IMG/VR virus record: IMGVR_UViG_3300050821_001428
Span: 1 to 64,000 of that record
Direction: 5' to 3' (one strand)
DNA: 64,000 nucleotides
Source of the DNA: a virus
Numbering within the stretch: the stretch's first letter is position 1; the number at the start of each line of letters is the position of its first letter. A program made the position numbers and the translations under genes. The notes under the pieces were generated by a model. The model did not search any database. It was not told the origin of the DNA and saw nothing but the letters and a program-made list of their open reading frames with translations. This document shows positions 18,107 through 54,234 of this stretch, in pieces.

Positions 18107-18135
18107 AGTATACCATCTAGCTACGAGCAAATCAA
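18107..18135 (-). promoter_or_regulatory. Promoter of the GC-rich operon
   Basis: TTGATT - 17 bp - TATACT on the minus strand, upstream of the gene starting at 18049. It may drive the whole overlapping series to about 14200. Confidence 0.65.
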
Positions 18136-41815: not shown

Positions 41816-41886
41816 ATTGGTAGTGCGCCTCATACACTTTACGTTGTTGTATTAGGAAAAACTTATGAGTCGCGCCTGAAACTAAG

Positions 41887-41955
41887 TAGCGGTAGCAGGA
41901 ATCGAACCTGCGTCTATTCCGTATGAAGGAATTTGCCAACCATAGGCTTACCGCC
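41887..41955 (-). tRNA. tRNA-Met(CAT)
   Basis: Cloverleaf with a GGCGGTA acceptor strand, anticodon loop TTCATAC, T-arm GCAGG-TTCGATT-CCTGC and discriminator A. Short D-loop. No encoded CCA. It could be elongator Met or the lysidine-type Ile. Confidence 0.85.
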
Positions 41956-41960
41956 AAATA

Positions 41961-42031
41961 AGCGTCTAGTCAGGATCGAACTGACATACTTCGGGTGGAA
42001 GCCGAATTCTCTACCATTGAGATATAGACGC
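41961..42031 (-). tRNA. tRNA-Gly(TCC)
   Basis: Acceptor GCGTCTA/TAGACGC, anticodon arm TTCGG-CTTCCAC-CCGAA, T-loop TTCGATC. No encoded CCA. Confidence 0.9.
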
Positions 42032-42074
42032 GAAGGATAGCGTGCTAGGTCGTTAACACTTCGCCCACATCATA

Positions 42075-42148
42075 AGCTAAGGGAGAGAATCGAACTCTCG
42101 CAACCATACTTACAAGGTATGTCACCCTACCAACAGGGAGTCCTTAGC
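42075..42148 (-). tRNA. tRNA-Thr(TGT)
   Basis: Acceptor GCTAAGG/CCTTAGC, anticodon arm CATAC-CTTGTAA-GTATG, T-arm GAGAG-TTCGATT-CTCTC. Confidence 0.9.
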
Positions 42149-42154
42149 GAATTT

Positions 42155-42460
42155 TCCTAGCTCCTATTAGCCGCCGTTCTGGTTTATGCTAACATCTGTC
42201 TCGGGTTACCCCGGCCACGGCATTATCCGTAAACGTGGTCTATCTCCACGATGGCTGCCCTCTACCTTGTGACCTTAGTTTCCCTTAGGTCAGCATCTTG
42301 AGGTCATATCATATGCCGACTAGCTAGGTTCAAACGGATTTCCCCTCCCTGATCTAGTCTCATCTTTACCGGCTTGATTAGGGCCGATCCCCTTTCAGGG
42401 ACACGATAAGGCGAACTTCCTCGATGGATTGGTTACCGCCGCGTTAGCTCGGAACTATGA
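42155..42460 (-). ncRNA. rnpB: RNase P RNA (candidate rnpB)
   Basis: A gene-free stretch of about 305 nt that folds with the long-range topology of bacterial RNase P RNA. P1: TAGTTCC (42451-42457) with GGAGCTA (42158-42164). Two bases later P2: GCTAAC (42443-42448) with GTTAGC (42188-42193). After a GAGGAAG box, P4: AG-T-TCGCC (42410-42417) pairs with GGCGGCT (42169-42175), leaving one bulged U, the hallmark of P4. J2/4 carries CAGAAC just before P4, and only four bases separate P4 from P1. The P2/P4 pseudoknot order is that of RNase P. It cuts the 5' leaders of pre-tRNAs and would normally need a protein subunit, presumably the host's. It lies between tRNA-Thr and the lysozyme-like gene. Confidence 0.85.
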
Positions 42461-42464
42461 AATT

Positions 42465-42911
42465 TTAATACCATCCGTGGGCGTAATGAAATGCAAGTGC
42501 CCTAGAAGGGCTTTTATACCTTTCGGTCACATAGTTACCGAAGCCAATCAATTGTCCCAAAACGGTTTTGGGACTTCCGCCATATGCATAGTATTGCTTC
42601 CAACTAGCAAATTGGGCCGAACCAGCACAACCGCTTTGCGAATTATAAGCATTTATATTGACATCACTTGGTGTTGAACTCGATTCCATATACAATATCA
42701 CCCACGCATCATATACCTCGGTATCATTCCAATGATGACTTTTAGCCACGATATCCATTGGTGATAAAGTCTTATGAGTCTTATGATATCTGTACTTATG
42801 TACATTAGTCTTGTTGACCCATTTAAATGGATGAGTTACATGTTGATGTTGATGATTATTATGAAACGGTGATAATGTAATCGCCGCGATTGTTAGAATA
42901 GTAGCAAACAT
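42465..42911 (-). CDS. Secreted lysozyme/transglycosylase-like protein
   Basis: A 148-residue protein with a short signal peptide (MFATILTIAAITLSP) and a C-terminal lysozyme-like domain: YDAWVILYMESSSTPSDV with the likely catalytic Glu, AYNSQSGCAGSAQF and a terminal HYAHGWY. This layout is that of transglycosylase-like (SLT/Rpf-related) enzymes that cut peptidoglycan. GGAAGG precedes the ATG. Its place inside the tRNA array is odd. Confidence 0.7.
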   Translation of the reverse strand: MFATILTIAAITLSPFHNNHQHQHVTHPFKWVNKTNVHKYRYHKTHKTLSPMDIVAKSHHWNDTEVYDAWVILYMESSSTPSDVNINAYNSQSGCAGSAQFASWKQYYAYGGSPKTVLGQLIGFGNYVTERYKSPSRALAFHYAHGWY

Positions 42912-43042
42912 AAGCCTTCCATCCGTAGATTTTGTCGTACCTTTACTTACCTAGTCACCGATTGGATTCGGCTCTTTATACCTTAGACTCACGGACATCT
43001 ACGGAAGAGTGGAATATACTCCTTTTATTTTATTTTACACCA

Positions 43043-43116
43043 TACTCCCACCAGGACTTGAACCTGGAACCGTTCGCGTATAAGACGAATGCACTAACCA
43101 ATTGTGCTATAGGAGT
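43043..43116 (-). tRNA. tRNA-Ile(TAT)
   Basis: Acceptor ACTCCTA/TGGGAGT, anticodon arm TTCGT-CTTATAC-GCGAA, T-loop TTCAAGT. Confidence 0.9.
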
Positions 43117-43143
43117 GAGAAACTGGGAGACTGAAATTGTAAG

Positions 43144-43218
43144 AGGGTAGTGTCGGATTCGAACCGACATAGGCTAGGATCACAACCTAGAACATTAGTC
43201 CAATTATGCTAACTACCC
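43144..43218 (-). tRNA. tRNA-His(GTG)
   Basis: Acceptor GGGTAGT/ACTACCC, anticodon arm CTAGG-TTGTGAT-CCTAG. The base before position 1 is T, so the His-specific G-1 is not encoded. Confidence 0.88.
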
Positions 43219-43229
43219 ACAAGCTACTA

Positions 43230-43300
43230 AGCACCTAGCCGGAATCGAACCGGCGTCTACTGCCTGGCAAGCAGTTATAATACCATTATACCATAGATGC
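43230..43300 (-). tRNA. tRNA-Gly(GCC)
   Basis: Acceptor GCATCTA/TAGGTGC, anticodon arm ACTGC-TTGCCAG-GCAGT, T-loop TTCGATT. Confidence 0.9.
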
Positions 43301-43304
43301 GACA

Positions 43305-43376
43305 CGCCCTCGGAGAGAATCGAACTCTCGCCCCCGCCATCGGAAAGCGGTGCTCTGGCCGCTGAGCTACAAGGGC
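43305..43376 (-). tRNA. tRNA-Arg(CCG)
   Basis: Acceptor GCCCTTG/CGAGGGC, anticodon arm CCGCT-TTCCGAT-GGCGG, T-arm GAGAG-TTCGATT-CTCTC. Confidence 0.88.
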
Positions 43377-43431
43377 ATACTCGGCGTTTTTATCTATTAT
43401 GAGAACGCCCAAACTCACAGACTATATTTAC

Positions 43432-44028
43432 TTACTGACTACTCTTGATGTCATTGAAGAGCGTCGTAGCATTACCCACCAGCTTTGGACTGTTGGTAGC
43501 ATTGTCCCAAATAGCTGGACCAAAAACTACTCTTACAAAGCCCTCCCAATATTGGGCATACGTCCGACCTGTGCTCGGATCGACACACATGACATAAGTT
43601 CCACTCGATGGTCCAGAGTATACCCCATTTGGGTCCATCTGTGCTAGAACATTACTGCCAGGAACACTGCCATTATTCGGATCACGAACCTGCATTTGTG
43701 GATTACTTAGCTCTGTATCAGATGCAACCGGTGCTCCAATCGATGAACACGAACCCTCTGGGTGAGGATCACCCATGTTCATAAAGAAGGTAGTAGACTG
43801 TACGCCATTAGCCTGGGCTGTCTCAATATCAATCAATTCTTGACGAATTTGAGAATGGGTGAACACGGGAATCGGTTGGTTATTAACTAGATTAAACGAA
43901 TCTTGATTCTGGGCACGCGATTCTCGCTGGGCGGCGGCATTGACATTATTACCTCCACATGCCGTAATTGCCATGGTAAGTACAATTACGATAGGCACAA
44001 CAATCCATCTGGTCTTAAACTTAGACAC
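43432..44028 (-). CDS. Lipoprotein
   Basis: A 198-residue protein with a basic start, a hydrophobic stretch (WIVVPIVIVLTMAITA) and a lipobox Cys (ITACGG) at about residue 24, so it is probably lipid-anchored outside the membrane. The rest is Gln/Asn/Ser/Pro-rich with several Cys and no recognised domain. A superinfection-exclusion lipoprotein is one possibility, by analogy only. It is paired with the membrane protein at 44031. Confidence 0.65.
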   Translation of the reverse strand: MSKFKTRWIVVPIVIVLTMAITACGGNNVNAAAQRESRAQNQDSFNLVNNQPIPVFTHSQIRQELIDIETAQANGVQSTTFFMNMGDPHPEGSCSSIGAPVASDTELSNPQMQVRDPNNGSVPGSNVLAQMDPNGVYSGPSSGTYVMCVDPSTGRTYAQYWEGFVRVVFGPAIWDNATNSPKLVGNATTLFNDIKSSQ

Positions 44029-44030
44029 TA

Positions 44031-44444
44031 TTATTTGGCTCCGGAATAACTTGATGATGGACTCACCGCACCATCAATACAGTTGATATAAATAAATTCA
44101 CTTTGTTGGGCGTTCAACGTTCCGCCATGTGCTTGCTGCGCCAACTCGCACAGTTGGCTCAAATCCGCATATTGTTCCGCCTTTAGAGCAATTACTTCAT
44201 TACCTTGTACGTCTGGGGACTGAATTTGTGCTGTAATGGTTTCAATGTTCTGAAACTGACCATCAATCTCTGATGCGAGATTGGACTGATATCCAATGGA
44301 ATTTCGGATCATCAGAGTTGTACGATTCTCGTTTTGATTGTTAAACCACCAACCAAGTTGCCAACCACCAAATACAATTACAGCAATTATTAGGATTGCT
44401 GTAAACGATCCACCGACAATCACCATCTTTTTAATCTTCTTCAC
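44031..44444 (-). CDS. Membrane-anchored protein
   Basis: A 137-residue protein with a GTG start and AAAGG upstream. A single N-terminal transmembrane helix (FTAILIIAVIVFGGWQLGWW) is followed by a helical outside domain with two Cys (LCELAQQ, YINCIDG). It probably forms an envelope pair with the lipoprotein two bases downstream. Confidence 0.6.
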   Translation of the reverse strand: MKKIKKMVIVGGSFTAILIIAVIVFGGWQLGWWFNNQNENRTTLMIRNSIGYQSNLASEIDGQFQNIETITAQIQSPDVQGNEVIALKAEQYADLSQLCELAQQAHGGTLNAQQSEFIYINCIDGAVSPSSSYSGAK

Positions 44445-44529
44445 TAATCGTTTACCTTTATTTTAGTTGACCTACACTTCTACAGTGTAGCAGACAAATG
44501 TGATGGCTGAAATGACTGAAAAGTCAAAG

Positions 44530-44602
44530 TACCGGGAGCGAGAGTCGAACTCGCGCACATTAGATTAAAAGTCTACTGCTCTGGCCACTGAGCTACCCCG
44601 GC
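44530..44602 (-). tRNA. tRNA-Lys(TTT)
   Basis: Acceptor GCCGGGG/TCCCGGT, anticodon loop CTTTTAA, T-arm GCGAG-TTCGACT-CTCGC. Confidence 0.88.
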
Positions 44603-44605
44603 TTA

Positions 44606-44678
44606 AGCCCTTGACAGGAATTGCACCTGCGACACACGGTTTCGTAGACCGACGCTCTCTCTACTGAGCTACAAGGGC
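44606..44678 (-). tRNA. tRNA-Arg(ACG)
   Basis: Acceptor GCCCTTG/CAAGGGC, anticodon loop CTACGAA. The T-loop is TGCAATT instead of TTCRANY, which is unusual. Confidence 0.82.
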
Positions 44679-44731
44679 TGGTTGGAGAGATTAATAGCTC
44701 TCTCCGGGCTATGATTCTTATTCTATCACGG

Positions 44732-45403
44732 TTAGGCTAGAGTTTCAACCCGATCGTAATCGTACTCCGATAGAGAGTATGCACCCTTGGTAGAAAGGAA
44801 CCCTCCTTTTACATGGTCGTGCATAATCTGTGCTTCGTATACCTGTCCTTCTTCTCCCGAAAGGGCTAATTCGTAAATCTTAGGATGCTCTTCCTTTAGT
44901 TCATCTAGCAACTTCTGGGCAAATATACGTTCATGATCCCTTAGATAAGGAACAATGCTCTTCCCGGTACCATCTCCACGGTAATGAAGGTCACGGTGCC
45001 GTCCGACGCACAGAGGAATCGTACAAACAGATCTAGCAGCATAGCTAACGTAGTTATCAAGCTCCTTCATAAGCCATCTAGGGATGAAGTGATGCCTAGT
45101 AATCCGACCTTCACATTCCCATCCATGTATAGCACAGATGCGGCAGGTTGGCTGGATTTGGGACTCGATCTTACGTAATCGGCGGCGTTCAAGAATCTCA
45201 GGAGGAACTACAATAGTATTAGAAGCTAACCTTAGACGAAATAAGACCTGCTTTTGTGTAAGCCCTTCATCCAATAGATCATCTAATTCTGCATCCTCAT
45301 AGTCGGCAAGAAGTTCCAATTGCTCTACTGTAGCCCGACTTTTTTGATCAAACCAAAAGACTTGGTTAGAACGCGGATCATCAAACCAACGAGCGCGAGA
45401 CAT
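44732..45403 (-). CDS. HNH-type endonuclease
   Basis: A 223-residue protein. CRICAIHGWECEG, RITRHHFIPRWLMK and CVGRHRDLHYRGDG form a zinc-braced HNH-like centre, as in homing endonucleases of phage tRNA arrays. The N-terminal region has helix-turn-helix character (LTQKQVLFRLRLASN). AAAGGAG precedes the ATG at 45403. It lies between tRNA-Arg(ACG) and tRNA-Glu(CTC). Confidence 0.6.
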   Translation of the reverse strand: MSRARWFDDPRSNQVFWFDQKSRATVEQLELLADYEDAELDDLLDEGLTQKQVLFRLRLASNTIVVPPEILERRRLRKIESQIQPTCRICAIHGWECEGRITRHHFIPRWLMKELDNYVSYAARSVCTIPLCVGRHRDLHYRGDGTGKSIVPYLRDHERIFAQKLLDELKEEHPKIYELALSGEEGQVYEAQIMHDHVKGGFLSTKGAYSLSEYDYDRVETLA

Positions 45404-45435
45404 GAACTCTCCTTTCCTAAATTCGGGTTGCAAAG

Positions 45436-45508
45436 TACCGATACGGAGAATTGAACTCCGATTTACGCGCTGAGAACGCGCTGTCCTACACCATTAGACG
45501 ATACCGGC
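45436..45508 (-). tRNA. tRNA-Glu(CTC)
   Basis: Acceptor GCCGGTA/TATCGGT, anticodon arm GCGCG-TTCTCAG-CGCGT, T-arm CGGAG-TTCAATT-CTCCG. Confidence 0.9.
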
Positions 45509-45579
45509 TTAGGTTGAATTTTTACTACTTTAGGTTCTTCATTAGCTTTCTTAATTTTTACAATCATCATCTACAATTC

Positions 45580-45850
45580 TATCCAGGGTAGATATATGTA
45601 TCTATAGCCAGATGTACAAGATTACGCCCCTGTTTAGCGCCGAGGGGCAAGGCGGAAGGACATGGCGGTAGCACCCAGCATACACTTATCCTCAGATTAT
45701 CCCCGCCTTTTCCGCACGGCATTAGGGACCATGAATTTCGTTACAGTTACAAGTACTCCCACGGCATACTGCCAGCCGCTCGTCGGATTAAGTTGTAATC
45801 CAATGACCTCTAGGTGGGGTTTCTACATTAATGATTCAATTAACACAAAA
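45580..45850. ncRNA. Possible structured RNA, class unknown
   Basis: A 348-bp gap between tRNA-Glu and tRNA-Lys(CTT) with no credible ORF but several perfect hairpins on the minus strand: GCCCCT...AGGGGC, GGATTA...TAATCC, GGCA-GTA-TGCC and TAGATA...TATCTA. Strand and boundaries are uncertain; it may be leader/trailer sequence instead of a discrete RNA. Confidence 0.4.
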
Positions 45851-45856
45851 AGTTAA

Positions 45857-45930
45857 TACGTTGCCTCGGAGTCGAACCGAGATTTGCCGAATTAAGAGTT
45901 CGGAACTTTATCCATTTAAGTTAGCAACGC
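45857..45930 (-). tRNA. tRNA-Lys(CTT)
   Basis: Acceptor GCGTTGC/GCAACGT, anticodon arm CCGAA-CTCTTAA-TTCGG, T-arm CTCGG-TTCGACT-CCGAG. Confidence 0.9.
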
Positions 45931-45994
45931 TTATTCCTAGCTACTAGGGGTTGAAGGCTTATTTTATTACTTCGTTAATAAGTACTTTTAAAAG

Positions 45995-46077
45995 TACCCC
46001 AGGTGGGACTTGAACCCACAATCTCTTACGAGCAACCGATTTTAAGTCGGTTTGTTATACCAATTCACAACTGGGGC
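45995..46077 (-). tRNA. tRNA-Leu(TAA)
   Basis: Class II tRNA with a long variable arm. Acceptor GCCCCAG/CTGGGGT, anticodon loop CTTAAAA, T-arm GTGGG-TTCAAGT-CCCAC. Confidence 0.9.
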
Positions 46078-46083
46078 GAGAAG

Positions 46084-46154
46084 CTGGAGAATAGGGATTC
46101 GAACCCCAATAGACGGTGCCAAAAACCGTCGTCTTGCCTTTAGACGATTCTCCA
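46084..46154 (-). tRNA. tRNA-Gln(TTG)
   Basis: Acceptor TGGAGAA/TTCTCCA, anticodon arm ACGGT-TTTTGGC-ACCGT, discriminator G. Confidence 0.9.
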
Positions 46155-46170
46155 GTGATTTGTAAAATAC

Positions 46171-46461
46171 TTAATTGTTTAGTTTTCCAGGTTCAACGTT
46201 TGTCGTTGTCGCTGAATCTAGTATAGCAACTTCCTGATCAGAGTCAAGCTTTTTTGCGGGTTTGGGGGTTTTGGTTTTTAGCAACAACTCTTCAAGGATA
46301 TCTCGCTGACGCTGATTATACGGTTGGTTCTTAGTATTGAGAACTATAACACGATAATCGGCAGGGACATCTTGTGATTGACTCCATTTAGTCGCCTTTG
46401 CCGGGTCATGAGTTGTGTAACATGACACGCCACTCTTATAAAATACGCTGTAAATCTTCAT
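46171..46461 (-). CDS. Hypothetical protein
   Basis: A 96-residue protein (starts MKIYSVFYKSGVSCYTTHD), lysine-rich in the middle (KTKTPKPAKKLDSDQ), sitting between tRNA-Gln genes. No family recognised. Confidence 0.55.
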   Translation of the reverse strand: MKIYSVFYKSGVSCYTTHDPAKATKWSQSQDVPADYRVIVLNTKNQPYNQRQRDILEELLLKTKTPKPAKKLDSDQEVAILDSATTTNVEPGKLNN

Positions 46462-46502
46462 ATCATATATTATGTACCGAACTTAGGGTTCGCCATATTT
46501 GA

Positions 46503-46577
46503 TTGCCCCTCTAGGGGTCGAACCTAGATAACTCCTGGTTCAGAGCCAGGCGAGTCTGCCAATTCCTCCAAGGGGCA
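46503..46577 (-). tRNA. tRNA-Gln(CTG)
   Basis: Acceptor TGCCCCT/AGGGGCA, anticodon arm CCTGG-CTCTGAA-CCAGG, T-arm CTAGG-TTCGACC-CCTAG. Confidence 0.9.
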
Positions 46578-46583
46578 TTAGTA

Positions 46584-46659
46584 TGGCAGAGACAGGATTC
46601 GAACCTGTGATCTCCTGCGTATGAGACAGGCGGGGACGGCCTTACTCCCCTACTCCGCG
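46584..46659 (-). tRNA. tRNA-Met(CAT), second copy, possible initiator
   Basis: Anticodon arm CCTGT-CTCATAC-GCAGG and D-stem GGGG/CCCC. The acceptor pairs GCGGAG/CTCTGC but position 1-72 is a C-C mismatch, reminiscent of initiator tRNAs. The GGG run in the anticodon stem of initiators is absent, so identity is open. Confidence 0.8.
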
Positions 46660-46664
46660 TCGAG

Positions 46665-46688
46665 CCAAGTTGATATCGCTCAACTTGG
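46665..46688. terminator. Hairpin after the Tad1-like gene
   Basis: CCAAGTTGA and TCAACTTGG flank a 6-nt loop, a perfect 9-bp stem between the Tad1-like gene and tRNA-Met. Confidence 0.6.
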
Positions 46689-46717
46689 AAAGCGCAAGTC
46701 TGTTGCTAGATTATAGC

Positions 46718-47053
46718 TCAGACCGCATGGGTGCCTTCGACACCACGGGCTTCACGCGCGGTGGTGCGCTCTTGTAACTTATCAAGAGCCTCCCCAAGCA
46801 GTACGAGTGCCTGCGCGTTGTAATCGCAGGCGAACTTGGTTGATTGGTAGAACTCAATCCGGTCGACAGCGGCGGCGATCACGCCCTCTACAAACGCACC
46901 GTTCGGCTCTAGGCGGACCCCGCCGCGCGTGAGCATGTGTTCGGCAAGCGGCCCGTTCTGCCATCCGATCGTAAAGCCGACGCCGTAGGTCGTGCCACCG
47001 GCTGGATTTCCGTCGTCGTCAGTGAAGTGATGGCTCTCGATTGTCTGCAACAT
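46718..47053 (-). CDS. Tad1-like protein (anti-Thoeris/anti-CBASS sponge candidate)
   Basis: A 111-residue protein from ATG 47053, with AAAGGAG upstream. It carries GGTTYGVGFTIGWQNGPL, EPNGAFVEGVI, RIEFYQSTKFACDYN and RTTAREARGVEGTH. From memory, this pattern and the Asn-to-Arg spacing (17 and 21 residues, matching N92, R109 and R113 as I recall them from cbTad1) point to the Tad1 family. Tad1 proteins bind signal nucleotides of Thoeris and CBASS defences. The gene is GC-richer than its neighbours. Family assignment needs a profile search. Confidence 0.55.
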   Translation of the reverse strand: MLQTIESHHFTDDDGNPAGGTTYGVGFTIGWQNGPLAEHMLTRGGVRLEPNGAFVEGVIAAAVDRIEFYQSTKFACDYNAQALVLLGEALDKLQERTTAREARGVEGTHAV

Positions 47054-47124
47054 CACAGTAACTCCTTTTCTCTCGATTAACGAAATATTGTCAGTATATC
47101 TTTCATCTTGATTGAATTGTACAG

Positions 47125-47208
47125 TGCCGATGGAGGGAGTCGAACCCTCACGTCTGTCAAGACACTGGGATTTGAAGCCAGCATGTATACCAATTTCATC
47201 ACATCGGC
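47125..47208 (-). tRNA. tRNA-Leu(CAA)
   Basis: Class II tRNA with a TGTC...GACA variable arm. Acceptor GCCGATG/CATCGGC; anticodon loop TTCAAAT with a C-C mismatch closing the stem; T-arm GAGGG-TTCGACT-CCCTC. Confidence 0.82.
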
Positions 47209-47278
47209 TTGTCTGGTTGCGTGATTTTATCAAGCTAGCATCATATTATTACACGCCATTACCTGCTGCCACGACCAT

Positions 47279-47323
47279 AGCACCACGGAGAATCGAACTC
47301 CGATTACAAGATTGAACTATTTA
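47279..47323 (-). pseudogene. tRNA 3' half (Thr-like) abutting tRNA-Glu
   Basis: An intact T-arm (CGGAG-TTCGATT-CTCCG) and 3' acceptor strand plus part of an anticodon arm (CTTGTAA) lie directly after tRNA-Glu(TTC). The 5' half is missing. Confidence 0.6.
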
Positions 47324-47397
47324 TAGCTCCAGCGGGGTTCGAACCCGCAATCTTTTCCTTGAAAGGGAAACGAGATAAACCATTACTCTATGGAGCC
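47324..47397 (-). tRNA. tRNA-Glu(TTC)
   Basis: Acceptor GGCTCCA/TGGAGCT, anticodon arm TTTCC-CTTTCAA-GGAAA, T-arm GCGGG-TTCGAAC-CCCGC. Confidence 0.9.
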
Positions 47398-47420
47398 AAG
47401 ATTTTCTAGTACGACCTACA

Positions 47421-47451
47421 AGTATAGCAGAGGGCGCTCATACAGTGTCAA
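47421..47451 (-). promoter_or_regulatory. Promoter within the tRNA array
   Basis: TTGACA - 19 bp - TATACT upstream of tRNA-Glu(TTC). The spacing is long. Confidence 0.5.
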
Positions 47452-47541
47452 TTTCCGCATCGCTTGTATCTAGGTGCCATATTTTCATCCACAAAGAAAT
47501 ACCACCGACTCTTTTGATGAATTTATCAGGCCGGATTACGA

Positions 47542-47762
47542 CCCTACAACGCTCCAAGGTTTGAGGTTATCGCACGATCCGCCCGGTTCCTGCGCTCCCT
47601 CTTAGTAGGCCCAGATACCCTGGGTTCGGTGCGAGAATTTTGGCCCGGCGTGTTCCGGATCAAGTCTCGCCCGACAGCACTGTGCCGGTTCGTCATGAAA
47701 ATCATGTAGCACATGTGTTGGGCGGCAAGTTCGATAACTTCAAACCTTGGAGCGTTGTAGGG
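47542..47762. ncRNA. Structured RNA closed by a 31-bp helix
   Basis: The bases at 47542-47572 and 47732-47762 are reverse complements over 31 positions with one mismatch. Inside lie further helices, such as CGCCCGACA with TGTTGGGCG, and CCCAG...CTGGG. No credible ORF runs through it. It lies between tRNA genes, where large phage RNAs such as GOLLD and ROOL are known, but it is shorter than those and I cannot assign a class. Confidence 0.65.
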
Positions 47763-47796
47763 GAAGCTTTTCAAGGCTCGCATTTTCCTGACAACA

Positions 47797-47841
47797 GTCC
47801 AGATGAGAGGAATCGAACCTCCACCGGGGGTTAGCCCGTAA
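47797..47841 (-). pseudogene. tRNA 3' half abutting tRNA-Ser(CGA)
   Basis: T-arm GGAGG-TTCGATT-CCTCT with a 3' acceptor strand and an anticodon-arm-like CTAACCC loop, directly after tRNA-Ser. The 5' half is absent, the same architecture as at 47279. Confidence 0.55.
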
Positions 47842-47931
47842 CGGAAGGTACGGGGATCGAACCCGTAAGGCACTTTCGTGCTCGTCACTTTTCGAGAGTG
47901 GTCCCATCGCCAACCATTGGGTTGCCCTTCC
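47842..47931 (-). tRNA. tRNA-Ser(CGA)
   Basis: Class II tRNA. Acceptor GGAAGGG/ACCTTCC, anticodon loop CTCGAAA, long variable arm, discriminator G. Confidence 0.9.
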
Positions 47932-48050
47932 AAGAATTCATCATTCATTGCATGTTCATATGTGCAATTTATAGTTGATCTACCGTCAAGTTCGCATGGC
48001 ATAACGGTTTAGTAAACCGCTCCAATACCGTTATGGTTATATTTCCTTGG

Positions 48051-48116
48051 CACCAGTGAGGGGACTTTCACCGCCTATCTGCCCGTGGGCTATTCTAATA
48101 ATTAAACTACACTGAT
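48051..48116 (-). pseudogene. Degenerate tRNA with lost anticodon loop
   Basis: Acceptor ATCAGTG/CACTGGT and a D-arm-like segment are present. The anticodon arm is reduced to GCCC-AC-GGGC and the T-loop is TGAAAGT, so it should not decode. Confidence 0.45.
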
Positions 48117-48120
48117 GTAG

Positions 48121-48206
48121 CGGAGGGACAGGGAATCGAACCCTGTGGACGCTCATCACGTTTTATACCGTTTCCAGCGATATTCCTAGCCATTTGGGTT
48201 CCCTCC
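48121..48206 (-). tRNA. tRNA-Ser(GGA)
   Basis: Class II tRNA. Acceptor GGAGGGA/TCCCTCC, anticodon arm TATCG-CTGGAAA-CGGTA, discriminator G. Confidence 0.85.
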
Positions 48207-48252
48207 AAGTGTACGTTCCCGATGACAATTTAACACACTACTTCGCACTTGG

Positions 48253-48459
48253 CTATTTCTTCAAACAGCATAACTTCAGAGCGTCGAGTCGGGGAGCAGC
48301 ACTGCGTGACGCGCGCGTCCCACCTGCTGCTCGCGGATCATCATCGCGGACGGCATCTCGACGCACGGCAACCGACGACAACGGCTCCTGGGAGCCGTAC
48401 TGATCGAAGAAGCCGATCCGAATGCGCTTCTGGAGCGCACGATCACCGTAGTCAGTCAT
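48253..48459 (-). CDS. Hypothetical GC-rich small protein
   Basis: A 68-residue Arg/Ala/Asp-rich ORF. Its ATG overlaps the stop of a 22-residue ORF (MSSGKLAVAGG...), which itself overlaps a 15-residue ORF, a chain of coupled starts behind the promoter at 48574. No family; the opposite strand is also open. Confidence 0.35.
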   Translation of the reverse strand: MTDYGDRALQKRIRIGFFDQYGSQEPLSSVAVRRDAVRDDDPRAAGGTRASRSAAPRLDALKLCCLKK

Positions 48460-48573
48460 CAGAACGTGAAGTGTATGCCGTTGTCGGAATCCCGCCAGCC
48501 ACAGCTAGTTTACCAGAACTCATACGCGTAAGCCCTGGTCGAGAATAATATACATCACCGGATTCATATCTAC

Positions 48574-48602
48574 AGTATAGCATATCAGACTAGAGTCGCC
48601 AA
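48574..48602 (-). promoter_or_regulatory. Promoter within the tRNA array
   Basis: TTGGCG - 17 bp - TATACT upstream of the coupled small ORFs and tRNA-Ser(GGA). A GTGACTC/GAGTCAC hairpin lies just upstream (about 48609-48650). Confidence 0.6.
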
Positions 48603-48649
48603 CTTATGGTGACTCCTCATGCTCCTTCCGCCACAAGGTGGATGAGTCA

Positions 48650-48741
48650 CGGATAGAGTGGGGGTCGAACCCACAAGGGCTTATTCATCCTCGTCGCTTT
48701 TCAAGAGCGATGCCGTCGGCCAACTATCGGCTTGCCTATCC
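48650..48741 (-). tRNA. tRNA-Ser(TGA)
   Basis: Class II tRNA. Acceptor GGATAG/CTATCC, anticodon arm TCGCT-CTTGAAA-AGCGA, discriminator G. Confidence 0.9.
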
Positions 48742-48747
48742 ATAAAA

Positions 48748-48829
48748 AGCCAGTGTGAGAATCGAACTCACTCCCCGTTATGGGCGATACGTGTTGCAGA
48801 CGCCGGTGTTACCATTCCACCAACTGGCC
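48748..48829 (-). tRNA. tRNA-Cys(GCA) with long variable arm
   Basis: Acceptor GGCCAGT/ACTGGCT, anticodon loop CTGCAAC, T-arm GTGAG-TTCGATT-CTCAC and discriminator T, the Cys identity base. The variable region is about 16 nt with a CCC...GGG stem, so the body is class II, which is unusual for Cys. Confidence 0.78.
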
Positions 48830-48913
48830 GTTATACCCCAATTCCCCAAAAGGGCTGCTGCCGGTCGAGCTAATATTAGCCTTTACCTACTCGGGGTTTG
48901 ATAGGTAGCAAAG

Positions 48914-48986
48914 CTGCTCAGATAGGACTTGAACCTATAACCATCGCCTTAACAGGGCGTTGCACCGCCAATTGTGCTACTGAGCA
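48914..48986 (-). tRNA. tRNA-Asn(GTT)
   Basis: Acceptor TGCTCAG/CTGAGCA, anticodon loop CTGTTAA, T-arm ATAGG-TTCAAGT-CCTAT, discriminator G. Confidence 0.9.
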
Positions 48987-49170
48987 TTGTTATTCCATCT
49001 TCAACTTCCATGTGACAATTTGAACATAATAAAATACATTTACTAGCTTCTGCTCTCATTTTAGCTAATCCAGGGATTTTACCCTTCCATGCTAAATGGA
49101 ACAACTTCGTAGTGGGATCTATATGGTGAAAATGTAAGGCTCTCATACATTTATCATATCCGCAAATCAC
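48949..49170 (-). pseudogene. HNH endonuclease fragment
   Basis: About 70 residues with ICGYDKCMRALHFHHIDP and CILLCSNCHMEVEDG, the zinc and HNH signature. There is only a GTG start, nothing upstream in frame, and the 3' end runs into tRNA-Asn. It looks like the remnant of an HNH gene of the type at 50463 and 53248. Confidence 0.6.
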
Positions 49171-49203
49171 ACAGATTGTCCATAAAACCTATGATCCGTT
49201 AAG

Positions 49204-49293
49204 CAGAGGGTAGGGGATTCGAACCCCTGATACACGTCTAAGGTGTATGACGGTTTAGCAAACCGTTCTCGTCAGCCACTTGAGTAACCCTCT
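49204..49293 (-). tRNA. tRNA-Ser(GCT)
   Basis: Class II tRNA. Acceptor AGAGGGT/ACCCTCT, anticodon arm ACGGT-TTGCTAA-ACCGT, long variable arm, discriminator G. Confidence 0.88.
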
Positions 49294-49299
49294 GAGACT

Positions 49300-49379
49300 A
49301 CAGTTCGATGACCACTGGTACACAATTAAGGTACGTCAATTTAGCAAACTGATGCAATCGGCCTCTCTGCCAACCTTCC
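49300..49379 (-). pseudogene. tRNA-Ser(GCT)-like remnant
   Basis: The 5' half looks like a Ser tRNA (GGAAGGT, GCAG...CATC, anticodon arm TCAGT-TTGCTAA-ATTGA). The T-arm and 3' acceptor do not pair properly. Confidence 0.5.
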
Positions 49380-49383
49380 AATA

Positions 49384-50046
49384 CTATACTTCAATCATTA
49401 CCGGTGAATTAAGCGGTTGGTAACGTGCATCCATTATAGCAACATTCCAAACTTCGGTTTCGCCTAATTCGTAATGGCCGAATCCTTCATGAATATGCCC
49501 ACAAATGACATGCTTAGGTTTAATATCCCTAATCATCATGTCACACTGTGCCGATCCCACATGAGGATGTAGTGCGCTGATAACCTTGTCCGCTACTCCA
49601 TAAGGAGGTCCGTGGGTTATAACTACATCCGTATCGGTATCTACGGCCTTATACTTCTCGCTTAGAGTAGCATTATCTCCGTAAAACGCCCAACCCTTTA
49701 GATTGGGAACCCATGGAATACCATAGAATCGAATATCATCTACAATGATAGCCTCATCCTCAAGATAAGTCCATCCTACATCGTAGGTAGTGTCCTTTGC
49801 ATCACCAAATACTGCGTATCTATTCTCCAGAGCGAAATCATGGTTACCAGCGATTACCAATCGGTGTTTTGCTGGCATTTTCATGGTCCAGTCTGAAAAT
49901 TCATTTCTAATCCAACTAGTACAACGATCGGTATCACGATCGTACCGAATCGGACTAATATCCCCCGCTACCACCAGAATATCGGATTCTGGAACCGCTA
50001 CAGGCAAATAGCCATGTAGATCCGAAAGAGCACAAATTGTTGTCAT
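49384..50046 (-). CDS. Metallophosphoesterase
   Basis: A 220-residue calcineurin-like phosphoesterase: CALSDLHGYLP, VVAGDISPIR, VIAGNHDFALE, VITHGPPYG and ICGHIHEGFG supply all metal ligands. AAGGAAAA precedes the ATG. Substrate unknown. Its position inside the tRNA array could mean an RNA-related role, but that is speculation. Confidence 0.82.
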   Translation of the reverse strand: MTTICALSDLHGYLPVAVPESDILVVAGDISPIRYDRDTDRCTSWIRNEFSDWTMKMPAKHRLVIAGNHDFALENRYAVFGDAKDTTYDVGWTYLEDEAIIVDDIRFYGIPWVPNLKGWAFYGDNATLSEKYKAVDTDTDVVITHGPPYGVADKVISALHPHVGSAQCDMMIRDIKPKHVICGHIHEGFGHYELGETEVWNVAIMDARYQPLNSPVMIEV

Positions 50047-50250
50047 TTTTCCTTAAGTGGACCTGCTCGCATCGAAGCGAGGTGGCCCGTAATCGTCATC
50101 AGAGATTTAGTATAGCATCTTTCTAGGACAAGAGTTACTTCAAGGACAAGCAGAGCTTGTCTCCACCAACTTAGTCTACATCTTAGGGGCGACTAGTAAC
50201 CCCGATTCCTATGCTTCTGTTGACAGGTGCATAGACCCCGTTCTGGCTAT
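50047..50250. other. Intergenic region with hairpins
   Basis: It holds a CTCGC-TTCGAT-GCGAG hairpin near 50065, a GACAAGC-TCT-GCTTGTC hairpin near 50145-50161, CTATGC...GCATAG and GGGG...CCCC stems (50180-50235) and a lone TATACT box at about 50109-50114. No ORF of note; possibly 3' UTR or small RNA. Confidence 0.4.
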
Positions 50251-50466
50251 TTAAGCAAGAACAGAAAGAACTTCACTTGCACGGATCTCGCTCTTTGCAG
50301 AGAAAGCGCCAGCAGGGATGTTCATAGGACGATATGATTCGCCAGTTAATTGTTTTGCGAGATTTAGGTGTCTCAAAACCGATGCAATTCTTAATTCGTT
50401 TTTACGAGATCGAAACCTTTCAGGCCCGTTGAAGAGAGGCAGCTTGTAATTGTAATTTGCTATCAT
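50251..50466 (-). CDS. Hypothetical small protein coupled to HNH
   Basis: A 71-residue basic protein (starts MIANYNYKLPLFNGPERFRS). Its ATG overlaps the HNH stop as ATGA. Function unknown. Confidence 0.5.
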   Translation of the reverse strand: MIANYNYKLPLFNGPERFRSRKNELRIASVLRHLNLAKQLTGESYRPMNIPAGAFSAKSEIRASEVLSVLA

Positions 50467-50882
50467 TTTTTACGTTGGTCGATACGTCTACACTCTTTGC
50501 ATTTATGTCTAGGTCTAAATGACCCATCTTTATTTGGCTCAGTATGTAAACTAAAATTATCCACAGGCAAAAATTGCTGATGCCCATGACACCACCACAT
50601 CCCTTCGGGATAATTGTTTTTATGTGGTGCTTGATTTCTTTTAATATTACAATTAAGATGTGAAAATGCAATGTTATCTAAATCCCAAAATAGATCATCA
50701 GGATTTTGAAGCCAAGGGATTTTGTGTTCAACAGATAATTCCTGAGCACACTCAATCGGTTTTTCACATACAAAACAAATATCTCTTCCGCTCTGTTGTA
50801 CAAGTTGGAAAAATATTTGTTTTCTGAGTCGAGCATAGGCAGTTGTAGTATACATACCTAACATGCTACGATAGCGTTCCAA
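50463..50882 (-). CDS. HNH endonuclease
   Basis: A 139-residue protein with CFVCEKPIECAQELSVEHKI (zinc pair and HNH His), DLDNIAFSHLNCNIKRNQ, and a C-terminal zinc-like CKECRR with an upstream WWCHGH. This is an H-N-H homing-type nuclease. A 20-nt 23S rRNA-identical sequence lies about 55 bp upstream of its start. Confidence 0.8.
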   Translation of the reverse strand: MERYRSMLGMYTTTAYARLRKQIFFQLVQQSGRDICFVCEKPIECAQELSVEHKIPWLQNPDDLFWDLDNIAFSHLNCNIKRNQAPHKNNYPEGMWWCHGHQQFLPVDNFSLHTEPNKDGSFRPRHKCKECRRIDQRKK

Positions 50883-50935
50883 AGATTTAGATTCTTATTT
50901 CATCATCTATTATATCTATGGACTATTACATTTCT

Positions 50936-50990
50936 GTAACTATAACGGTCCTAAGTAGAAATCCTACCTACACGGTAATAGCGTAACATA
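50936..50990 (+). other. 23S rRNA-like fragment (I-CeuI-type site)
   Basis: On the plus strand 50936-50955 reads GTAACTATAACGGTCCTAAG, identical to the highly conserved 23S rRNA segment that contains the I-CeuI homing site (left 19 bases of that site). The next bases (TAG, AAAT, CC) can be aligned to 23S only with small deletions. It lies between an HNH gene and tRNA-Val. Confidence 0.75.
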
Positions 50991-51024
50991 ACTTCGAACG
51001 CTGCCCATTTTTGCTACCTCTCAG

Positions 51025-51096
51025 TAGACAGAGAGGGATTCGAACCCTCAACCTCCCGCATGTCAAGCGGGTGCGCTACCATTGCGCTATCCGTCT
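51025..51096 (-). tRNA. tRNA-Val(GAC)
   Basis: Acceptor AGACGGA/TCTGTCT, anticodon arm CCCGC-TTGACAT-GCGGG, T-arm GAGGG-TTCGAAT-CCCTC. Confidence 0.9.
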
Positions 51097-51112
51097 GATT
51101 ACTACTTGTAAG

Positions 51113-51185
51113 TACCCAATCTGTGAATCGAACACAGTCAATAGGGGCATGTAAAGCCCTTGCCGTCCCATCTGGCTCATCGGGT
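51113..51185 (-). tRNA. tRNA-Val(TAC)
   Basis: Acceptor ACCCGAT/ATTGGGT, anticodon arm AGGGC-TTTACAT-GCCCC, T-arm CTGTG-TTCGATT-CACAG. Confidence 0.9.
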
Positions 51186-51189
51186 ATGG

Positions 51190-51221
51190 TGGGCAAGCAA
51201 GCTTTTGAACTACACTTGCCC
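51190..51221 (-). pseudogene. tRNA minihelix remnant 1
   Basis: Perfect acceptor-like stem GGGCAAG/CTTGCCC enclosing only about 17 nt (TGTAGTTCAAAAGC...), which resembles a D-arm. Anticodon and T arms are absent. Confidence 0.4.
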
Positions 51222-51226
51222 TTGGC

Positions 51227-51273
51227 CGCATCCGGGAGGATTTCAACCTCGCCTACAGAACTAAATCGGATGC
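51227..51273 (-). pseudogene. tRNA minihelix remnant 2
   Basis: Perfect acceptor GCATCCG/CGGATGC, a 15-nt linker and a T-arm-like CGAGG-TTGAAAT-CCTCC. There is no D or anticodon arm; total about 47 nt. Confidence 0.45.
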
Positions 51274-51305
51274 TTTATTGAGGGTGGGTGGTCCCCCATC
51301 CTCAG

Positions 51306-51377
51306 CGGTTCTAGAGAGAATTGAACTCTCGTATGAGGCTTGACAAGCCCCCGTAATATCCACTATACGATAGAACC
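51306..51377 (-). tRNA. tRNA-Asp(GTC)
   Basis: Acceptor GGTTCTA/TAGAACC, anticodon arm GGGGC-TTGTCAA-GCCTC, discriminator G. Confidence 0.9.
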
Positions 51378-51387
51378 TAATTGTAAC

Positions 51388-51456
51388 ACCCCATCAAGGT
51401 AACGCTCCCTGGTCTTCGGGTTTGGAAGCCGACGTTTTGCTATTAAACTAATGAGG
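51388..51456 (-). pseudogene. Degenerate tRNA-Gly(TCC)
   Basis: Acceptor CCTCATT/TGATGGGG, D-arm GTTT...AAAC and a CTTCCAA anticodon loop are visible, but the anticodon stem is imperfect and the T-loop is AGCGTTA. Confidence 0.4.
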
Positions 51457-51839
51457 TTTTAAGAGGCCAAGACCATAGGTAATCTACCTTCCAAGCACTA
51501 CCTGGGTCTTAATGACCTACAGTAATAATAAACACTGATCGCACCCCTGAGTAGCAGTCAATAAGGAATTGTCCACATAGTGCCAGCTATATAGGTTTCA
51601 GAGAATACAGCCCTGGCAGGCTAATCTCTTGCGATGGCGAGTTATGTACTGGTCGCCACAGTAAGACTGCATTCGGATTTGAGCCGAAATGCGCTACCCA
51701 TCGTAGCATGCAGCCGAAAAATAAGTAGGCATCCTCTGTTCTAGACCAGAGCCTTTTGGTTATTCTTGAGCGCCTATGTCAAGGTTTTCCATATCTAGGA
51801 CTTTAAACCGACAGAGCTTTTCCCTTGAACCTACTTATA
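51457..51839. other. Gene-free stretch with tRNA-like debris
   Basis: No ORF is credible. Visible structures: a CAAGACC/GGTCTTG stem near 51465-51525, the three-arm tRNA-like RNA at 51664-51714 and the AAGTAGG/CCTACTT-closed segment at 51723-51836, which contains a CTCTG...CAGAG arm with a CTA-type anticodon loop. Confidence 0.5.
51664..51714 (-). pseudogene. tRNA-like RNA missing one arm
   Basis: Acceptor GGCTGCAT/ATGCAGTC (8 bp), a GCTAC-GATGG-GTAGC arm and a TTCGG-CTCAAAT-CCGAA arm, with nothing else. The last arm can be read as a T-arm or as an anticodon arm (CAA). Confidence 0.45.
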
Positions 51840-51911
51840 AGCCAACTATGAGAGTCGAACTCATTCTTTCTACTTACGGGGTAGACGTGCTTCCGTTGGC
51901 ACTCAGTTGGC
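51840..51911 (-). tRNA. tRNA-Thr(CGT) with C33
   Basis: Acceptor GCCAACT/AGTTGGC, anticodon arm TCTAC-CCCGTAA-GTAGA, T-arm ATGAG-TTCGACT-CTCAT. Position 33 is C, not the near-universal U. Confidence 0.8.
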
Positions 51912-51920
51912 GGCGGGCTA

Positions 51921-51993
51921 TCAGAGATGAGAGATTTGAACTCCCGATAAATGCTCCCAAAGCACTTGTGTTACCAGACTACACTAATCTCTG
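51921..51993 (-). tRNA. tRNA-Pro(TGG)
   Basis: Acceptor CAGAGAT/ATCTCTG, anticodon arm AGTGC-TTTGGGA-GCATT, T-loop TTCAAAT. Confidence 0.88.
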
Positions 51994-52294
51994 TTTTGGT
52001 CCCAATGTATCGCCCTATTGGCTTGACGACTCCTAGAACATTGGGACCATAGACCCATACCGAAAGGTATAAAATAGGGCCTATTTCGTTATATAGGTGC
52101 TATATAAGGTTGGGTGGAGAATTACCTCACTCGCTTACTCGCTACTTGTTCGCGACAGGCAAAACCCCAACTTTATACGTGAATTTCGTTGGCAACCTGT
52201 TACTTTCACTTTCTTCTAATGACCCATGGAAGATAAGGGAGTCGAACCCCTTCGCACACTAATTAATATCTTAGTCCCCATCATAAATAGATAG
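51994..52294. other. Gene-free stretch with hairpins and a truncated tRNA
   Basis: It contains a perfect 12-bp hairpin TGGTCCCAATGT/ACATTGGGACCA (51997-52049), small stems near 52055-52100, a GTTGGG/CCCAAC pairing (about 52110-52175) and a three-arm tRNA-like remnant at 52226-52281 with a good T-arm (TTCGACT loop). No credible ORF. Confidence 0.5.
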
Positions 52295-52371
52295 TGGAGG
52301 ATATCGGATTCGAACCGATGCAAAAACCCACGGTGCAAACGTAGTGCTCTCCCAAACTGAGCTAATCCCCC
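52295..52371 (-). tRNA. tRNA-Ala(TGC)
   Basis: Acceptor GGGGGAT/ATCCTCC, anticodon arm CTACG-TTTGCAC-CGTGG, T-arm ATCGG-TTCGAAT-CCGAT. Confidence 0.9.
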
Positions 52372-52388
52372 AAGAAGGATAATAAAAA

Positions 52389-53120
52389 ATGAAAATTAAA
52401 ACTGTTGAAGTTGTTTGTGATGGTTGTGGTCAACTTTTTGACCGATATATAGGCGAAGTAAAACGTTCTCAACGCAAACATATGAAAATGTATTGCGCGC
52501 AATCTTGCACAGCAAGATATCGTGTCCGACCCATTACTATACACGAACCTAATGTAATCTGCGCCCATTGTAATAAAGCATTTTACAAAAACCCCTCATC
52601 TTTGAGTAATTCAAAATCTGGCTTATTCTTCTGTTGTCGGGAGCACAAAGATATATCGCAACGTATAGGTAATTTACACGCGATACGGGAGATAATGCCC
52701 AATCATTATGGAACAGATCCCAATAAAAATATTAATTATAGAAAACTTGCTTTCGATCATTTACCTAATGAATGTGAAATTTGTCAATGGAAGGAATATC
52801 CCAATGTTTTAATTGTTCATCACAAAGATCGAAACAGGAATAATAATGTCCTCGAAAATTTACAAATTATTTGTCCAACACATCATGATGTAGACCATTA
52901 TTTACAAAAGGATGGACGCTTTACAACAGGACGCCGTCATACCGGAATCAATCGCTCTCAAATCAAATGGCCACCCATTCCTTGGCTTTTAGAACGTTCT
53001 AATCAAATTGGAGTCCGTCAGACCGCGCTTGAGATTAATGTATCAGATACTGGTTTACGTCACTATTTACGTAGAAATGGTATTGACCCACCAGATTTTC
53101 GAGGTAGAAAACATACATAA
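52389..53120 (+). CDS. HNH endonuclease inserted in the tRNA array
   Basis: A 243-residue protein, opposite in strand to all tRNAs. N-terminal zinc fingers (VVCDGCGQLFDRY, CAQSC; VICAHCNKAFYKN, FCCREH), then an HNH core (CEICQWKEYPNVLIVHHKDR, NNNVLENLQIICPTHH), then a C-terminal helix-turn-helix (RQTALEINVSDTGLRHYLRR). AGAAGGA precedes the ATG. It lies between an intact tRNA-Ala(TGC) and a 5' half of another tRNA-Ala(TGC), which suggests insertion into a tRNA gene. Confidence 0.85.
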   Translation: MKIKTVEVVCDGCGQLFDRYIGEVKRSQRKHMKMYCAQSCTARYRVRPITIHEPNVICAHCNKAFYKNPSSLSNSKSGLFFCCREHKDISQRIGNLHAIREIMPNHYGTDPNKNINYRKLAFDHLPNECEICQWKEYPNVLIVHHKDRNRNNNVLENLQIICPTHHDVDHYLQKDGRFTTGRRHTGINRSQIKWPPIPWLLERSNQIGVRQTALEINVSDTGLRHYLRRNGIDPPDFRGRKHT

Positions 53121-53121
53121 T

Positions 53122-53164
53122 CCTGCGTGCAAAGCAGGTGTGTTCCCATTAGCACTAATCCCCC
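53122..53164 (-). pseudogene. tRNA-Ala(TGC) 5' half
   Basis: GGGGGAT acceptor strand, D-arm and a complete anticodon arm CCTGC-TTTGCAC-GCAGG, then the sequence breaks two bases before the stop of the HNH gene. The T-arm and 3' acceptor are missing. Confidence 0.7.
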
Positions 53165-53168
53165 TAAG

Positions 53169-53241
53169 TACCACCTCTGGGATTCGAACCCAGACTTGTA
53201 CGCTCCTAAGGCGTATGCCTCTGCCGTTGGGCTAAGGTGGC
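53169..53241 (-). tRNA. tRNA with TAG anticodon (Leu), short variable loop
   Basis: Acceptor GCCACCT/AGGTGGT, anticodon arm TACGC-CTTAGGA-GCGTA, T-arm CTGGG-TTCGAAT-CCCAG. The TAG anticodon reads CTA (Leu), but the variable loop is short, unlike bacterial Leu tRNAs, so the charged amino acid is uncertain. Confidence 0.75.
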
Positions 53242-53247
53242 TAATAT

Positions 53248-53913
53248 TCAATTTTCAATCTTCGTTACTTTAATACCAAGTTGACCCGCTTGATATCGCA
53301 TTTTAACATAAGTATGAGCGTTTGTCAAGCTTACTCCAGATTTTATCGCACCATGGAGACTTTTATGGTGCTGACGACAAATCGGTACAACATCTTCAAA
53401 TTTTTCATGCCCTAATCTTACATATGTATGGTGATGTAAATCATATGATTCATCCCCACATACGAAACAAAACTTTAATGTTCCACTATTAGCAACATAG
53501 GCTGTTTTAAATTCTTTCCAATGATCCGAATCGAGATATTCTTTATATTCCTCTCTAGTCATTGAGGGTGGACACACAGCTACTTGTGCTGCTGCGGCAC
53601 GCCTGCGCTTTAAGCTTTTTTCATGTACTACAGGAAAAAATGCTAATTTTTTAGCACGGGTAGTGTGTCTACGCCTGCTGCGATTCTTCATTTTACTTAC
53701 TTGTAAAGGGCTTTTATATGGATGTTTGGAGATTTCCTCCAAAACTAACATACGTAGTTCTTTAGGCACATCCATAATATCTACATGAATCATACATGTA
53801 GATTCACGATACAGCGAATCTACATGCTTTGGAGCAAAAATCACCAAGGGACGCTCGCGCCCGCATGTTTTGCAATATTTGCTTTTCTTAGTAGGGATAA
53901 ATGATTTACTCAT
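53248..53913 (-). CDS. HNH endonuclease
   Basis: A 221-residue protein starting MSKSFIPTKKSKYCKTCGRE (zinc pair). The C-terminal core is CFVCGDESYDLHHHTYVRLG and VVPICRQHHKSLHG. REEYKEYLDSDHWKEFKTAY before it is the typical preface of phage HNH proteins. The start at 53913 is preferred because the one at 53934 lies inside tRNA-Tyr. Confidence 0.82.
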   Translation of the reverse strand: MSKSFIPTKKSKYCKTCGRERPLVIFAPKHVDSLYRESTCMIHVDIMDVPKELRMLVLEEISKHPYKSPLQVSKMKNRSRRRHTTRAKKLAFFPVVHEKSLKRRRAAAAQVAVCPPSMTREEYKEYLDSDHWKEFKTAYVANSGTLKFCFVCGDESYDLHHHTYVRLGHEKFEDVVPICRQHHKSLHGAIKSGVSLTNAHTYVKMRYQAGQLGIKVTKIEN

Positions 53914-53927
53914 AATCAAAATTCCTA

Positions 53928-54009
53928 TGCTCATTTAAGGAATCGAACCTTACTGTCATAAAGATACGGATTTACAGTCCGCTACCAACACCAGTTGGAC
54001 ATAATGAGC
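53928..54009 (-). tRNA. tRNA-Tyr(GTA)
   Basis: Class II tRNA. Acceptor GCTCATT/AATGAGC, anticodon loop CTGTAAA, long variable arm, T-loop TTCGATT, discriminator A. Confidence 0.9.
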
Positions 54010-54161
54010 TAATTTGAATTGAGAATCTGTGCTCGGCGCGACCATAGTAATTTGTGGAATACACCCACCCAGAGGGGAATTGACCACTATCACAGACCAT
54101 AACCTCAATCCTATGTTTTCTTTCTGACTCTAGTTTAGCACATCGCTTCACCTTTATCAAA

Positions 54162-54234
54162 CACCCACTGAGGGATTCGAACCCCCAATCTAGACCTTAG
54201 AACGATCTTGCCTTATCCATTGGGCTAAGTGGGC
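54162..54234 (-). tRNA. tRNA-Arg(TCT)
   Basis: Acceptor GCCCACT/AGTGGGT, anticodon arm AGATC-GTTCTAA-GGTCT, T-loop TTCGAAT, discriminator G. It is the first tRNA in transcription order of the array. Confidence 0.88.

Follow-up and report, generated by a model that had tools for sequence, protein, structure and literature searches.

We identified, on the minus strand of a viral DNA stretch of 64,000 nucleotides (the window, from a 144-kb phage genome), a 300-nt RNA that is very probably a genuine, very diverged phage RNase P RNA of the bacterial type, which would use the host RnpA protein and mature the tRNAs of the phage. RNase P RNA is a near-universal ribozyme and is regarded as a cellular or organellar gene; the window presents this known ribozyme in an unexpected place, diverged and invisible to Rfam. 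Homology, structure, covariation and neighbourhood support its identity, and its catalytic role is strongly suggested as a prediction from sequence. The core of the catalytic domain is kept (P1, P2, J3/4, P4 with its bulged U, J2/4 and the P15/L15 GGU), and the specificity domain is reduced.

A sequence-only reading of the window had proposed an RNase P RNA at this locus, pointing to a P1 of 7 bp with one G-U, a P2 of 6 bp, a P4 with a single bulged U, a P2/P4 pseudoknot, GAGGAAG ahead of P4 and CAGAAC in J2/4. All of these are present and read on the minus strand, 42457-42158 (Table 1), a strand which that reading had not given. The interval is bounded by the stop of an open reading frame at 42465 and by tRNA-Thr(TGT) at 42148. 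P1 closes the P2/P4 pseudoknot, the P2 core (GCUAAC/GUUAGC) is extended by a closing G-U, and P4 (AGU[U]CGCC/GGCG-GCU) is flanked by GAGGAAG and CCAGAAC where J3/4 GAGGAA and J2/4 (A)CAGAA are expected, J3/4 being one A shorter than the bacterial consensus. A CGCGG-type sequence follows directly on the 5' strand of P2, likewise in several of the relatives described below. The P3 site holds 20 nt without a clear helix; P3 is clear in the relatives G003 and G007. P5 (UAUCGU/AUGAUA) occupies the place of CAUCCU/AGGAUG in G003 and G004. Canonical CR II and CR III are unrecognisable by eye in the specificity domain, where GGGAG..UUGAACC, common to the window RNA and its relatives, stands instead. 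In the P15 region GGUA abuts GAGG, with the L15 GGU just ahead of the 3' strand of P15, as in bacterial types A and B; in known enzymes this GGU contacts the tRNA 3' CCA. The P16-like hairpin, whose 5' strand coordinates follow from the position of CCTAAGGG, contains CCUAAGGG, which is also common to the window RNA and its relatives, and the P18-like hairpin followed by AGACAGA ahead of P2' is arranged as in G003 and L129. Helix names other than P1, P2, P4 and P15 were tentatively assigned by position. The folding energy of the window RNA is modestly low (z = -2.28).

Table 1 Coordinates in the window of the candidate RNase P RNA, its elements and associated genes; names ending in "-like" are tentative and given by position.
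Feature	Position	Strand	Remark
Candidate phage RNase P RNA, P1 to P1'	42158..42457	-	300 nt
P1 5' strand UAGUUCC	42451..42457	-	partner GGAGCUA 42164-42158; 7 bp, one G-U
P2 5' strand GCUAACG	42442..42448	-	partner UGUUAGC 42194-42188
J3/4 GAGGAAG	42416..42422	-	upstream of P4
P4 5' strand AGU[U]CGCC	42410..42417	-	bulged U 42414; partner 42175-42169
P5 5' strand UAUCGU	42403..42408	-	partner AUGAUA 42312-42307
Reduced specificity domain	42313..42401	-	holds P8-, P9- and P10/11-like elements
P8-like hairpin	42401-42388	-	
P9-like hairpin	42386-42370	-	
P10/11-like helix	42359-42354 with 42323-42318	-	
P15, L15 and P16-like region	42259..42303	-	
P15 CCUC/GAGG	42303-42300/42262-42259	-	
L15 GGU	42266-42264	-	
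P16-like hairpin UGACCU/AGGUCA	42292-42287/42275-42270	-	
P18-like hairpin CGGG-GUAA-CCCG and following AGACAGA	42195..42213	-	
J2/4 AUAAACCAGAAC and P4 3' strand GGCGGCU	42169..42187	-	J2/4 12 nt
CAGAAC motif in J2/4	42181-42176	-	
tRNA-Thr(TGT)	42075..42148	-	9 nt downstream of P1'
tRNA array	41886..54234	-	30 genes; likely substrates
CCA-adding enzyme ORF	21941..24805	-	954 aa; PolyA_pol head, RNA-binding and HD domains in C-terminal half

We joined GAGGA, a 7-bp P4 with bulged U, CAGAA, P2 and P1 into a search descriptor, which was shaped by the earlier claim and whose component elements are those of the known RNase P core. The full descriptor has a single match in the 144-kb phage genome, at 42457-42158. 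The combination of motifs, P4 and P2 was absent from 400 genomes simulated with matching dinucleotide content, over which the motifs with P4 alone occurred 10 times.

The sequence-only reading had also expected an Rfam covariance-model match, and on this point it failed. No Rfam RNase P model matched the window RNA, even when the filters were permissive and the limit was raised to E=10; RF00010 matched nowhere in the 144-kb genome, and no other Rfam family matched the locus. Since the curated RF00010 cut-off of 100 bits is missed, we place the window RNA in the superfamily (clan CL00002) and not in RF00010, and with Rfam silent at the window, relatives were needed to decide its identity. The phage is remote: searches with two single window proteins gave no close relatives in IMG/VR, and exact and loose DNA patterns from the window RNA gave none there either (the loci L005-L009 found with such patterns are chance matches). 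A virion protein of the window phage is common to Rhodococcus phage E3 and the mycobacteriophages Myrna and Alice, and its alignment recovered 73 related viral loci. Run on 50 of these contigs, RF00010 gave model-spanning matches in seven; their E-values range from 6.1e-21 to 8.7e-12, and their scores of 38-65 bits stay under the Rfam cut-off. For the RNA of G011 the archaeal model RF00373 scored best. A blastn search with the window RNA matched G003 within the RF00010 match of that contig, and a P15/L15 pattern added L122, L127 and L129 as members. In eight cultured phages (E3, Myrna, RedWattleHog, Settecandela, ScoobyDoobyDoo, MTATph1, Finch and Alice) RF00010 found no match. A weak RF00010 match in G010 was set aside, as were the pattern matches L125 and L126; all three resemble coding sequence. 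Inserts are indicated in two members: the RNase P RNA at L129:11940-12470 (-) apparently has ~190 nt, which may be coding, inserted in its specificity domain, and in L127:1150-1400 (+) P15 and J2/4 are separated by a long insert that may be an intron or an expanded domain. The P15/L15 pattern also occurs on bacterial contigs (L173-L203; Leptospiraceae, Chloroflexota, Andersenbacteria and others), a possible clue to the origin of the phage RNAs.

Conservation of the pairing in related phages, on which the sequence-only reading had staked its claim, was strongly borne out. Across 21 phage RNAs, aligned by J3/4 and J2/4 only, P4 forms standard pairs in 166 of 168 cells, with both-sided changes at several positions, and the bulged U is present in every member (21/21). 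In the window RNA, two inner P4 pairs are switched from G-C to C-G with pairing kept. When P4 strands were swapped between members, none of 20,000 permutations reached the observed 166 (maximum 151), and P1 and P2, though near-free in sequence, pair with their own partner strands much better than with those of other members (0/20,000 each); the sequences are related, so these counts are not exact probabilities. P15, with strands chosen by hand, pairs in 67 of 72 cells over 18 members. With its position left free, the window P1 does not pair better with its own partner than in all swapped pairings, and the case for the window RNA therefore draws on its position, on P4 and on a covariance-model match.

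That match came from a phage covariance model which covers the 3' domain from P15 to P1' and for which nine phage RNAs, the window not among them, served as training set. The model matches the window at 42153-42312 (-) with 38.0 bits and E 2.3e-7, the next-best match in the genome reaching 12 bits; its E-values are rough owing to a short calibration, which leaves the bit gap unaffected. In a control scan of 43 related contigs the sole strong match was the training member G003, and the 42 contigs outside the training set reached at most 17.8 bits. A sequence-only HMM built from the relatives did not recover the window RNA. Weak R1 matches in G050, G016 and G013 had no tRNA context and were discounted; two of them, read in sequence, lack the RNase P core. 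The pairing in relatives and the match to a model trained without the window support the RNase P RNA identity first proposed.

The neighbourhood of the RNA points to tRNA maturation. About 32 adjoining tRNA genes had been claimed; the array stands and the count is corrected to 30 by ARAGORN, all on the minus strand, with a 3' CCA encoded by none (0/30). In the window, G003, G004, G007, G008, L129 and G084 the RNA is separated from a downstream tRNA-Thr(TGT) by no more than 4-10 nt, an arrangement seen in four of the seven RF00010-matching relatives; the next tRNAs are usually Gly(TCC) and Met(CAT). The domains of the open reading frame 21941-24805 match solved CCA-adding enzymes. All seven P-RNA phages >100 kb of the window's family (the window and six relatives) have a CCA-adding enzyme, compared with 3 of 14 related contigs >100 kb without detected P RNA (Fisher p 0.001, uncorrected for relatedness). 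The sequence-only reading had missed the L15 GGU with P15, the conservation of tRNA-Thr as neighbour, the CCA-adding enzyme and the many other viral carriers presented below. RnpA was found neither in the window phage nor in 26 P-RNA contigs, and we therefore assume host RnpA or RNA-only activity. The ~500 N-terminal residues of the CCA-adding enzyme have no Pfam match, and in several relatives the domain of this enzyme coincides with an open frame >1,000 aa long. Elsewhere in the window, four open reading frames on the minus strand (55390-58404, 29955-32909, 34931-39547 and 18132-20471) carry intein-splicing and/or LAGLIDADG domains, which in 55390-58404 interrupt a B12-dependent ribonucleotide reductase.

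RNase P cleaves at the 5' end of tRNAs. In the mechanism that we propose, the RNA would be transcribed together with the tRNA array, bind the host RnpA protein and strip the 5' leaders from phage pre-tRNAs, and the phage CCA-adding enzyme would finish their 3' ends. Because the RNA directly precedes tRNA-Thr, a cut at the 5' end of this tRNA would also create the 3' end of the RNase P RNA itself.

An RNase P-like RNA could also act as a decoy or regulator, sequestering host RnpA or inhibiting host RNase P and not cutting tRNAs. The phage has no detected RnpA, so the RNA would compete for that of the host, and its specificity domain is reduced; however, conservation is highest in J3/4, the bulged U, P4 and J2/4, which make up the catalytic core, and in the substrate-contacting L15 GGU, and the RNA is located in a tRNA array of a phage that has a CCA-adding enzyme, which makes such a role improbable. 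A decaying remnant would fit the most divergent member seen, with its weak P3 and its silence in Rfam, but two inner P4 pairs have changed on both sides and still pair, P1, P2, P5 and P15 are intact and the neighbourhood is preserved; we regard a pseudogene as very improbable. Chance resemblance, or some other structured RNA such as an intron, a tmRNA or a large ornate RNA, is scarcely credible: the missing Rfam RNase P match speaks for it, and against it stand the empty result from the simulated genomes, the match of the independent phage-trained model and the absence of any other Rfam family at the locus. A diverged phage RNase P RNA that would mature phage tRNAs is the reading we prefer.

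In IMG/VR, 45 stretches fit a generic pattern of the 3' core. RF00010, run on 44 records, matched in 36 and exceeded the Rfam cut-off in 25; the contigs reach 497 kb. Many of the IMG/VR RNase P RNA genes sit within tRNA arrays, several immediately before a tRNA, and a terminase profile matched 18 of the 40 contigs examined, including those of 497, 372, 318 and 190 kb. Host DNA or proviruses may account for some of the short, high-scoring contigs that lack tRNAs. Compact RNAs of ~207-227 nt by RF00010 match lie at L224:1501-1707, L229:1501-1727 and L231:1501-1722 (contigs of 190, 19 and 89 kb), and a 163-kb viral contig combines an RNase P RNA (L223:1501-2584) with a tmRNA gene and several genes for tRNA-Ser.

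On balance, we lean towards the view that several large-phage lineages own an RNase P ribozyme, and that a CCA-adding enzyme and large tRNA arrays often accompany it, amounting to a phage-owned tRNA maturation in which the ribozyme would free its own 3' end by a cut at the adjoining tRNA; some of these RNAs would be compact, at ~200-240 nt (by Rfam match), and the window's sub-family would be barely seen or missed by Rfam. The data suggest that during infection some phages assume control of the 5' maturation of tRNAs, and viral RNase P RNAs, diverged and reduced yet covarying, offer natural minimal ribozymes for study.

The sequence-only reading had called phage rnpB genes rare or undescribed. 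Our full-text searches, which covered open-access literature, turned up no description of an RNase P RNA encoded by a phage, and on this scope priority is uncertain; genes of this kind are present on many further viral contigs. The window RNA resembles class A bacterial RNase P RNA (RF00010), which its relatives match end to end, in the order of the P1/P2/P4 pseudoknot, the bulged U of P4, GAGGAA/CAGAAC and the P15-L15 GGU. Unlike class A, it has 300 nt against a 367-position model, a reduced specificity domain, a score below detection and a location in a phage tRNA array. It shares its compact size with archaeal RNase P RNA (RF00373), the best model for its relative G011, and with the minimal T-type, whereas it is phage-borne and its L15/P15 and J2/4 are of bacterial type. 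CCA-adding enzymes have been named in huge phages, in a paper whose main text makes no mention of RNase P (PMC7162821). The window phage resembles these phages in encoding tRNA-maturation functions; unlike them, it would also encode the RNA for 5'-end maturation.
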